This document shows positions 7,965 to 35,904 of a stretch of 43,245 nucleotides of DNA, piece after piece. The position numbers and the translations under genes were made by a program. Position 1 is the stretch's first letter. Each line of letters begins with the position of its first letter. The DNA is taken from positions 1 to 43,245 of the forward strand of contig JANYEX010000262.1 in the NCBI GenBank assembly GCA_025359725.1, given 5' to 3'. The notes under the pieces were generated by a model, which had not been told where the DNA came from, searched no databases, and saw only the letters and a program-made list of their open reading frames with translations. The DNA is from Chitinophagaceae bacterium (lineage in GTDB: Bacteria; Bacteroidota; Bacteroidia; Chitinophagales; Chitinophagaceae).

Positions 7965-9032
7965 ATGAAAAAGTACAAACCGGGGGTTTTATTTGGAGAA
8001 GAGCTAGAGGCTCTTTTGCAAGATGCAAAACAAAATGAATTTGCATTGCCAGCAGTAAACACTATTGGTACAAACACAATAAACGCTGTATTGGAAACTG
8101 CAGCAAAGGTAAATTCGCCTGTTATCATTCAGTTTTCCAATGGTGGCGCACAGTTTATAGCTGGCAAAGGAATGCCAAACGGTAATTACGAAGCAAATAT
8201 TGCTGGTGGAATTTCTGGAGCCTTGCACGTTCATAATGTTGCAAAACATTATGGTGTGCCAGTGGTGCTTCATACTGATCATGCTGCCAAAAAATGGTTG
8301 CCTTGGATTAGCGGATTGATTGATGCTGGTGAACAATTTTATAAAGAAAAAGGACAGCCATTGTTTAGCTCACACATGCTTGATTTGAGTGAAGAACCAT
8401 TGGAAGAAAATGTTCATACATCAATAGAATTCTTCAAAAGAATGCAACCATTGGGTATGGCAATTGAAATAGAATTGGGTGTTACTGGTGGTGAGGAAGA
8501 TGGCGTTGATAACAGCGATGTTGAAAACGACAAACTTTACACCCAACCACAACACGTTGCTTACTGCTACGAAGAATTAGGTAAGGTTGGTAAATTATTT
8601 ACTATCGCTGCTGCTTTTGGTAACGTACACGGGGTTTACAAACCAGGTAACGTGGAGCTTAGACCAATCATTTTAAAGAACAGTCAGGATTATATTCAGA
8701 AAGAGTTTGGCACAGGTCCTAAGCCAGTTTATTTTGTATTTCATGGTGGTAGCGGAAGCCCTCAACATCAAATTAGAGAAGCAATCAGCTATGGTGCTAT
8801 CAAAATGAACATTGATACAGATTTGCAATGGGCTTTCTGGGACGGTATTCTTCAAAATTATAAAAAGAATGAAGGATACTTGCAAGGTCAATTGGGCAAT
8901 CCAGAAGGGGAAGACAAGCCAAACAAAAAGCATTACGATCCACGTATATGGTTACGTAAGGCAGAAGAAAGCTTTAACACACGTTTGGAAATTGCTTTCG
9001 AAGATTTAAATTGTATTAATAGAAACGCATAA
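7965..9032 (+). CDS. fbaA: Class II fructose-bisphosphate aldolase
   Basis: FALPAVNTIGTNTINAVLETAA, VVLHTDHAAKKWLPWI, FVFHGGSGSP, AISYGAIKMNIDTDLQWAFW. Confidence 0.96.
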   Translation: MKKYKPGVLFGEELEALLQDAKQNEFALPAVNTIGTNTINAVLETAAKVNSPVIIQFSNGGAQFIAGKGMPNGNYEANIAGGISGALHVHNVAKHYGVPVVLHTDHAAKKWLPWISGLIDAGEQFYKEKGQPLFSSHMLDLSEEPLEENVHTSIEFFKRMQPLGMAIEIELGVTGGEEDGVDNSDVENDKLYTQPQHVAYCYEELGKVGKLFTIAAAFGNVHGVYKPGNVELRPIILKNSQDYIQKEFGTGPKPVYFVFHGGSGSPQHQIREAISYGAIKMNIDTDLQWAFWDGILQNYKKNEGYLQGQLGNPEGEDKPNKKHYDPRIWLRKAEESFNTRLEIAFEDLNCINRNA

Positions 9033-10095: not shown

Positions 10096-10176
10096 AATAA
10101 GGCATAAGTCGTAGCTCATTAGGTATAGGTATATGCCTATACTTACGACTTATTACTTACGACTTATTACTTTTTC

Positions 10177-13655: not shown

Positions 13656-13847
13656 CTGTGTTGTTTTAGAAGGCGCAAAAGTAACCTAAAATAAATTCTT
13701 TAAACCTGACTATTGTTATGATATACATAAATAGTTCTTTCTCAAGAAAAAGTTGGCTTGTCTAATTTTTACCAAAAACTAAGTTACCCTTATTTGCAAA
13801 AAAGAATGCATCCTATCTTTTTCTTATACTTTATACGGCGAAAAATA

Positions 13848-13973
13848 CTTTTCGAGGAGCTAGAAATTCTTTTCGAGAAGCTAGAAATACTTTTCGAGTC
13901 GCTCGAAAACCTTGTCGAGTCATTCGAAATACTTTTTGAGCCGCTAGAAAACCTTGTCGAGCCGCTAGAAAAG
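13848..13973. repeat. Array 1: six perfectly phased 21-bp dyad-symmetric tandem units
   Basis: Units start at 13848, 13869, 13890, 13911, 13932, 13953; consensus CTTTTCGAGNNGCTAGAAANN. Unit 3 contains the perfect palindrome TTTTCGAG-tcg-CTCGAAAA. Confidence 0.95.
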
Positions 13974-14450: not shown

Positions 14451-14524
14451 AATTTAAACGATATGCTCAGTTGTTTCCTACAACATAAAACTCATATCTC
14501 ATAACTCATATCTCATAACTAACA

Positions 14525-20192: not shown

Positions 20193-20285
20193 GAGTGATG
20201 AATGATGAGTTATTAGTACTTGGTTATAACTCATAATTTATAATTCATAACTGATAACTTACCTTTGCTGGCTTAAATTTAATGT

Positions 20286-25928: not shown

Positions 25929-26068
25929 ATTTTGATTTCTGCAAAAGTTATTTATACAGCCTTATCCGTTTGGTAATACCATCAGTAATATTAACACTTT
26001 TGCTATTAGCCACTCTCTTATTTTAAGTAAAATAAAACTCTTTGCAAACCACAATTATCAAAATACAT

Positions 26069-26340
26069 ATAAAAGAGACTTCTTTTACTCATCTAATAAA
26101 ATCGGATGACATAAAAGAGACTTCTTTTATCCATCTAATAAAATCGGATGACATAAAAGAGAGTTCTTTTACTCATCTAATAAAATCGGATGACATAAAA
26201 GAGACTTCTTTTATCCATCTAATAAAATCGGATGACGTAAAATAGAGTTCTTTTATGTCATCCGATTTTGTTGATGACATAAATTGAGTTTTTTAAGCCA
26301 TCTTGATTAATCGTATGACATAAATTGAGAATTTTTAGTC
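26069..26340. repeat. Array 2: 42-bp (2x21) tandem repeat, degenerating at its right end
   Basis: Unit ATAAAAGAGACTTCTTTTACTCATCTAATAAAATCGGATGAC at 26069, 26111, 26153, 26195; diverged unit at 26237 (42 bp) and 26279 (41 bp), partial at 26320. Confidence 0.95.
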
Positions 26341-33566: not shown

Positions 33567-34343
33567 TTATCTTTTTGCTCTTTGTCTTTTTACCTCGTTC
33601 CACAGTTCATCCATTTCTGCGAGGGACATATCTGCCAAGTTCTTCTCTTTTTCCTTTGCCAATGATTCCATCTGTTGAAAACGATTAATAAACTTCACAT
33701 TTGTCTTTTCCAACACACCCTCTGCATCAATATTCAAAAAACGTGCATAGTTTATTAAGCTAAACAAAACATCACCAAACTCTTCTTCTATATGTGGTGT
33801 ATCTCCCTCTGCTATTGCCTCATGCAGCTCTGCCATCTCTTCTTCCACCTTCTTCCAAACGTCTTCTTTATTATCCCATTCAAACCCTACCTGCTTTGCT
33901 TTTTCTTGAATGCGTGTCGCTTTTACCATTGCTGGCAGCGATTTCGGCACTCCTTCTAGCACACTCTTTTTCCCTTTTCCTTCTTTTAGTTTTAGTTGTT
34001 CCCAGTTGCGCTTTACGTCTTCCTCATCATTTACGGTTACATCGCCATAAATGTGTGGATGCCTATGAATCAACTTTTTACTGATGCCCTCTACCACATC
34101 CTGCAAGGTGAATTGCCCTTGTTCAGCCCCAATCTTACTATAAAACAGCAGATGAAGCATGATGTCGCCCAGTTCTTCCTTTATCCCCTGCCAGTCTTCC
34201 GCTGTTATGGCGTCTGTCAGTTCGTACGTTTCCTCTATCGTTAGTGGGCGCAGGGTTTGTATCGTTTGTTTCTTATCCCAAGGGCATTTTTCCCTCAAGT
34301 CATCCATTATTTGTACCAGTTGCAAGAAGCTGTCTGAAAGCAT
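33567..34343 (-). CDS. mazG: Nucleoside triphosphate pyrophosphohydrolase MazG
   Basis: CPWDKKQTIQTLRPLTIEETYELTDAI; ELGDIMLHLLFYSKIG; RHPHIYGDV; EEFGDVLFSLINYAR. Confidence 0.96.
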   Translation of the reverse strand: MLSDSFLQLVQIMDDLREKCPWDKKQTIQTLRPLTIEETYELTDAITAEDWQGIKEELGDIMLHLLFYSKIGAEQGQFTLQDVVEGISKKLIHRHPHIYGDVTVNDEEDVKRNWEQLKLKEGKGKKSVLEGVPKSLPAMVKATRIQEKAKQVGFEWDNKEDVWKKVEEEMAELHEAIAEGDTPHIEEEFGDVLFSLINYARFLNIDAEGVLEKTNVKFINRFQQMESLAKEKEKNLADMSLAEMDELWNEVKRQRAKR

Positions 34344-34393
34344 GTATTTAGTTATGAGTTATGAGTTATTTTCCCCTATAAAATGTGTCAATA

Positions 34394-34765
34394 TTATCCT
34401 TCAAATATTAGGGTGTTATCTCCTATAAATTTCACTTTGTAAGTTAATGAATAGGTTTTTTCATACTTAATCTTTAGGGTATCTGATTTTATTTTGTAGC
34501 TGCAATAGTTAAAGTCGTCAACATAAAAGATTCTGTTTTTATCAATTTCAAAAGCTGCACTTGGTGCACTAGTATCAATATACCACCAAATACCTAGAAT
34601 CTTTTTACTCATAAGATTATTATCTACATTATTTACTACTTGTATAAGTGGAGTTGTATTGTTTATTGGACCATAAACAGCATGAGGTGTATTGTTTTCA
34701 TTTTTGAGTCCACATGATTGAAGGGCTATTAAAAACAGTAAAATAAACTTATTTATTAAATTCAT
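34394..34765 (-). CDS. Putative small lipoprotein
   Basis: MNLINKFILLFLIALQSCGLKNE: signal peptide with lipobox; 123 aa. Confidence 0.65.
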   Translation of the reverse strand: MNLINKFILLFLIALQSCGLKNENNTPHAVYGPINNTTPLIQVVNNVDNNLMSKKILGIWWYIDTSAPSAAFEIDKNRIFYVDDFNYCSYKIKSDTLKIKYEKTYSLTYKVKFIGDNTLIFEG

Positions 34766-35000: not shown

Positions 35001-35314
35001 AAAAGTAATGATATATCTCTTTTATACTGTATAATTACTTTAAAAACCTTAGTAACTGTTACTAATATGCCAATCTACGTAGTATGACTTTAAAACTCCG
35101 TAGATCGGGGTTAAATCTACGGAGATTCAGATTTAATCTACGGAGATTGAGTCCTAATCTCCGTAGATTAAACCCTAATCTCCGTAGATTGGAACATTAG
35201 CTACGTAGATTGCCTCCTCATCTACGTAGTATGCTTCTTGATCTACGGAGATTGAAACCTAATCTGCGTAGATTGTTTCCTAATCTCCGTAGATTTGAAA
35301 AAAAGTAATGATAT
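35001..35314. repeat. 14-bp direct repeat AAAAGTAATGATAT flanking Array 3
   Basis: Identical copies at 35001-35014 and 35301-35314, 300 bp apart. Confidence 0.85.
35072..35295. repeat. Array 3: eleven perfectly phased 21-bp units (14-bp near-palindrome + 7-nt variable spacer)
   Basis: Cores start at 35072, 35093, 35114, 35135, 35156, 35177, 35198, 35219, 35240, 35261, 35282; consensus AATCT[A/C]CG[T/G]AGATT. Confidence 0.97.
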
Positions 35315-35487: not shown

Positions 35488-35904
35488 CTATTTATTCTCT
35501 ATCGGAGCTTTGATAAGCAATACAGGCAGGTTTGTTTGGTTTAACACCTTCTCAGCTACATGCCCAATAAAGAAATGTTCGTGTAAATTGTGTCCTTTGT
35601 TGCCTAATACTACCAAATCGGGCTTTAAATCTGCCACCGCTTGCAGTATTTCAACATAAGGAATACCAAAAAGAATCTCTTGTTTAATAGTAAGTTTTTT
35701 AGGATTTCGTTCGGAAACCCACGCTGACAGTTCTTCTTCTATCTGTTTAAAAGATATAGAAGCCATCTCCTCGTTTTGGGTTGCAACATGCACTACTGTA
35801 AGCGAAGCGTTCCGAACAATTGCGGTGTCGTAGGCATACTCAAAAGCATAAGAGGATGTGTTAGAGTAATCTACAGCACAAAGAATGTGTTTAATCAATG
35901 ACAT
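35488..35904 (-). CDS. Universal stress protein (UspA family)
   Basis: HILCAVDYSNTSSYAFEYAYDTA; LVVLGNKGHNLHEHFFIGHVAEKVLNQTNLPVLLIK. Confidence 0.93.
   Translation of the reverse strand: MSLIKHILCAVDYSNTSSYAFEYAYDTAIVRNASLTVVHVATQNEEMASISFKQIEEELSAWVSERNPKKLTIKQEILFGIPYVEILQAVADLKPDLVVLGNKGHNLHEHFFIGHVAEKVLNQTNLPVLLIKAPIENK

Follow-up and report, generated by a model that had tools for sequence, protein, structure and literature searches.

An intergenic array of eleven near-palindromes at an exact 21-bp pitch fits a described kind of bacterial satellite of constant size and variable sequence

Plasmid-origin iterons are direct repeats placed about two helical turns apart. Tandem repeats of 20-21 nt, constant in size and variable in sequence, have been described in Bacillus by Subirana and Messeguer in 2021, with Cyanobacteria and Actinobacteria also mentioned (PMC8161180). 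Their length was noted to equal two turns of the helix, and a polymerising protein or small RNAs were suggested, with no evidence for function; a characteristic short sequence was common to the repeats of the species shown (PMC8161180). Among short intergenic palindromes, REPs are 20-40-bp hairpins, most of them tagged GTAG or CGTC, that are linked to RAYT transposases (Di Nocera et al. 2013, PMC3733652). Here we describe array 3, a repeat array in a window of 43,245 nucleotides (contig JANYEX010000262.1 of a Chitinophagaceae bacterium), which fits an intergenic satellite of the published 20-21-nt kind.

Coordinates of array 3, its borders and neighbouring genes, and the other arrays of the window.
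Feature	Position	Strand	Description
Sibling array	13838..13972	.	Same class as array 3, unlike it in sequence (AAATACTTTTCGAGCCGCTAG); pitch 21/42 bp; weakly dyad-symmetric (p 0.026)
Dispersed element	26031..26332	.	302 bp, fixed ends; encloses array 2 (26069-26256; 42-bp, two alternating 21-bp near-palindromes)
MazG nucleotide pyrophosphohydrolase	33567..34343	-	Synteny anchor
123-aa ORF	34394..34765	-	No Pfam match; array 3 sits 307 bp upstream
Perfect palindrome	35049..35065	.	17 bp, TTAGTAACTGTTACTAA; one pitch ahead of unit 1 of array 3; read from sequence
Array 3	35072..35295	.	11 units; 14-bp core AATCTNCGNAGATT + 7-bp spacer; 21-bp pitch
Right border of array 3	35296..35307	.	TGAAAAAAAGTA; read from sequence
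Universal stress protein gene (usp)	35488..35904	-	Usp, PF00582; array 3 starts 193 bp past its stop

The units of array 3 start at 35072 + 21n (n = 0-10) with zero indels. Six of the eleven cores match the consensus exactly and the other five differ from it by 1-3 bases, chiefly at outer positions (AATCTACGTAGTAT, AAACTCCGTAGATC, TAGCTACGTAGATT, CATCTACGTAGTAT and GATCTACGGAGATT). By autocorrelation, self-identity is 0.72 at lag 21 and 0.68 at lags 42 and 63, with every remaining lag within 14-63 at 0.40 or below, and the window contains four adjacent pairs of exact cores versus 0.00 expected from 100 shuffles. The unit starts and lag identities confirm eleven 14-bp near-palindromes at an exact 21-bp pitch without an indel, as the initial annotation had it, and the ten spacer sequences listed there are all correct. 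Dyad symmetry of the unit is 0.62 versus 0.43 ± 0.04 (p = 0.002). ORF calls place the array in noncoding, intergenic DNA between usp and the 123-aa ORF, which itself stands upstream of mazG, and tRNA was the sole match in an Rfam search of the window. The source is an uncultured Chitinophagaceae; among named MazG proteins the closest, at 85% identity, belongs to a Chitinophagaceae MAG. Near gene starts, the window also carries 7/14-bp direct repeats of AGTTATG type (34350-34363, 10140-10172, 14489-14520, 20224-20259). They bring to mind the heptamer TAACTGA, which has been reported from Beggiatoaceae, Cyanobacteria and some Bacteroidetes (PMC4679880).

Two further eleven-unit arrays in the 3.36-Mb draft genome, at C112:6899-7122 and C252:1515-1738, are built on the core of array 3. 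Two cores at the array 3 spacing were found in 0 of 298 other family genomes, leaving the pattern in 1 of 299. No array in 12 congeners matched the array 3 sequence, and searches of plasmids, phages and viral contigs with it gave no match. At the place corresponding to the 17-bp palindrome ahead of unit 1, the two sibling loci carry similar yet different palindromes (GGCAA..TTGCC and GGAAACGATTACC). The three copies have a short right border in common, TAGAAAA at the siblings and TGAAAAA at array 3; TAGAAAA also borders an array of another species with similar outer bases (L180).

Comparison of the 33 units from the three same-core loci bears out the view that a conserved core alternates with diverged spacers of fixed length. 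Information is 1.52 bits per column in the core versus 0.47 in the spacer; all the units agree at core columns C7, G8, T5 and A2, and positions 6 and 9 vary freely. Spacer identity is 0.41-0.53 versus 0.25 by chance, with no indel. The pitch is therefore retained despite spacer drift, as had been anticipated, and in the wider class it is likewise the pitch, not the sequence, that is constant. A near-palindromic 14-bp core with invariant positions resembles a dimer operator, and each array could be bound by its own sequence-specific dimeric regulator of adjacent genes. This we regard as improbable, given the unrelated genes next to the three same-core arrays (usp and the 123-aa ORF; cytidylate kinase and ThuA; an unknown gene and DUF6141), the many regulators that about 180 arrays would demand, and the unrelated core found at the usp locus of another species. 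A regulon reading was rejected on the unrelated neighbours.

The two half-sites of a unit behave independently, in line with the earlier suggestion that orientation is mixed or that each half of a palindrome mutates separately. Half-site identity between units (0.81) is not below that within a unit (0.78), and pairing within a unit is no better than across units. The inner positions 6 and 9 pair in 7 of the 33 units versus 13.5 expected, a deficit whose p-value is too small because the units are related by duplication, and pair covariation was absent from the 33 same-core units. Half-sites of array 3 type also occur at C263, in an array where they are mixed with a second half-site type on either side of the dyad. 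Both the interchange of half-sites between units and the mixing at C263 suit independent contacts by two protomers, not strand pairing.

These data bear on the idea of a transcribed series of tandem hairpins, acting in mRNA 3' stability, in termination or as an RNA sponge. Array 3 does fold far better than dinucleotide shuffles, with z about -13 on either strand, and related 52-nt arrays of Bacillus coagulans are reported to be transcribed (PMC8161180). However, in the array 3 family folding energies stay equal when the spacers are permuted or the cores reordered, so that the strong z-scores are due entirely to the palindromic core. As the permuted controls fold just as well, a hairpin function was rejected; the rarity of 6/9 pairing, the lack of covariation, the 15 of 34 arrays between divergent genes and the lack of an Rfam match count against it as well, and we consider an RNA element very improbable. 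Intrinsically curved or nucleosome-like DNA, built from phased AT/GC tracts, would agree with a unit of two helical turns, and a few arrays are individually phased at 10.5 bp. Over 36 arrays, however, the 10.5-bp AT/GC harmonic is not above column-permuted controls (KS p 0.83). For the class, this reading is largely refuted, and we give it almost no credence.

Array 3 has company in the window and elsewhere in the genome. The element that encloses array 2 has more copies at C18, C290 and C116/C53, with constant ends in several, and relatives in four congeners partly keep the ends and differ in their inner palindromes. The leader of the array 2 element (TAAAACTCTTTGCAAACCACAATTATCAAA, about 26036-26064) shows 90% identity across 30 bp to FDNYGSQRVLEKCGF at L225 (G003:C65:18604-18633), apparently the 3' portion of a gene for a GNAT acetyltransferase; the likeness may reflect capture or chance. 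One array locus is present in two assembled copies, closing C116 (L212) and opening C53 (L213) of G000, with flanks identical at 57 of 57 and 178 of 179 positions. The two alleles have arrays of 287 and 161 bp, and the difference of 126 bp is exactly 3 x 42 bp. A separate palindrome array of GTATGCGCATAC at L127:8021-8275 (G000:C16) slips out of phase once, by a single base near 8126, which shows that the pitch of the class is not absolutely rigid.

We surveyed the genus by an autocorrelation scan of sampled contigs. Among 48 noncoding arrays from 13 species, 38 have a pitch of 21, 41-42 or 62-63 bp, a count that leaves out arrays with a true unit of 7, 14, 15, 18 or 33 bp and one of 61 bp. 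Their sequences are quite different; they share the pitch and are often dyad-symmetric, with symmetry at p < 0.05 in 23 of 41 arrays where about 2 are expected, and without it in 18. Noncoding 21-bp arrays were absent from 239 kb of 12 other genera of the family, and eight samples from other families (103 kb) had none. Nor was a noncoding lag-21 array present in 80 named MazG loci, mainly of other Chitinophagaceae with a few of this genus; lag-42 matches at the far end of MazG loci, in A/K-rich-looking sequence, are probably coding. In the genome studied here, 218 kb of unselected contigs hold 12 arrays, about one every 18 kb, from which we estimate a total of some 180-185 intergenic arrays. 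Placement is 15 divergent, 12 tandem and 7 convergent (n = 34), against 46, 81 and 17 for background gaps from a crude ORF caller; confinement to gene 3' ends was rejected, as 15 of the 34 lie between divergent genes. In 16 consensus units no k-mer was clearly common to the array families. The pentamer AAATA, in 8 of the 16, is slightly in excess of the 95% shuffle limit of 7, uncorrected for multiple testing. Any one protein would thus need to rely on shape or on very limited sequence, and a single sequence-specific protein for the whole class is unlikely because no k-mer is clearly shared.

Arrays also recur at orthologous places with unrelated sequences. Downstream of the orthologous usp (L247:1501-1914), another species, G003, has a 14+7 array with core AAAGAC..GTCTTT, which is no more similar to array 3 than expected by chance (p 0.54). 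The gap with an array downstream of usp is present in both species, with a different array sequence in each. G001 has an array of a third sequence, placed upstream of its 123-aa ORF orthologue. At the congener loci seen, neither mazG nor the 123-aa ORF adjoins usp, and arrays may mark rearrangement breakpoints.

We tentatively propose, with rather less than even confidence, that array 3 serves as a dyad-symmetric lattice of two-turn pitch for a putative dimeric DNA-binding protein of low specificity. Each unit would seat one symmetric dimer of an abundant protein with little sequence preference, and the pitch and inverted half-sites would be kept because of this seating. With units two turns apart, neighbouring dimers would lie on one face of the helix and could build a filament or patch over the intergenic region, with a role in architecture or local silencing. 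Gains and losses in multiples of 21 or 42 bp would keep an array homogeneous and allow its whole sequence to drift without loss of pitch. The step from a lattice to a protein filament is one that we infer. For the lattice we count the constant pitch of the class, the dyad symmetry of 23 of 41 arrays, the unrelated 14+7 array by the usp gene of G003 and the 126-bp allele step; against it stand the lack of a common 10.5-bp phasing to be read and the 18 of 41 arrays that are not measurably symmetric. The lattice explains the spacing, the independence of half-sites and the absence of indels.

The main rival view is of a functionless, selfish satellite that arises and changes by whole-unit slippage or unequal exchange, the 21-bp quantum coming from the geometry of copying or repair machinery and the dyad symmetry from exchange between inverted half-units. 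We hold this to be a serious possibility, if not a probable one. Copy number does shift by whole units in the C116/C53 alleles, sequence turnover is fast and species-specific, array 2 is part of a discrete dispersed element, and the arrays have neither a gene-function theme nor strict placement nor a shared motif; a selfish satellite remade by such exchange accounts for the turnover, and for alleles that differ in whole units, just as well as the lattice does. What it meets with difficulty is a pitch free of indels across diverged spacers in 33 units, as point indels should shift the pitch of an existing array unless arrays are often remade. With an assumed ratio of 1 indel per 10-20 substitutions, about 5-10 indels would be expected in the 33 units versus 0 observed, an expectation that depends on this ratio and is drawn from units related through duplication. 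The absence of indels slightly tips the balance to the lattice over the functionless satellite, a judgement that rests on the assumed indel-to-substitution ratio. The lattice may be extended to the whole genus, which would then keep about 180 lattices per genome with selection on geometry only (the 21-bp pitch and inverted half-sites) and sequence left free, a putative shape-reading protein forming sequence-independent filaments at set chromosomal places. This extension we regard as rather unlikely.

The initial annotation could name no known counterpart of array 3. This stands for its sequence, and a literature search on palindromic 21-bp arrays in Bacteroidota found nothing relevant; it does not stand for its kind, already published as 20-21-nt satellites (PMC8161180). 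Like those satellites, the class of array 3 has units of 20-21 nt (some 41 or 62), is noncoding, spans two helix turns and comprises several unrelated families of the same length per genome, with species-specific sequences. It differs in belonging to another phylum and in that many units are built from inverted half-sites in dyad symmetry and a spacer that varies freely. In the species shown, the published repeats share a short motif, whereas here AAATA alone is slightly above shuffles, before any correction for multiple testing. With REP/BIME elements array 3 shares short intergenic palindromes in many copies; unlike them, it forms long arrays of fixed pitch, has no GTAG or CGTC tag flanking its cores and has half-sites without pair covariation. 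A link to RAYT was not supported: this genome has two Y1_Tnp (RAYT-type) genes, and the 2.3-kb locus around one of them (L274) holds no array. Unlike iterons, array 3 was seen in no Rep gene or origin context and had no plasmid match, and arrays are many and spread across many contigs. A conserved near-palindrome with a variable spacer of fixed length recalls CRISPR, whose spacers are about 30 nt; the 7-nt spacers here are too short, and no cas gene is among the neighbours examined (Usp, the ORF of unknown function and MazG). To the known kind, these arrays add the dyad half-site design, an orthologous site occupied by an unrelated array, alleles that differ by whole units and a very high density in the genus. 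The genus offers a dense test case for bacterial satellites of fixed length and variable sequence, in which, through this density, the unrelated arrays at orthologous places and the whole-unit alleles, it becomes directly testable whether sequence or pitch is selected.
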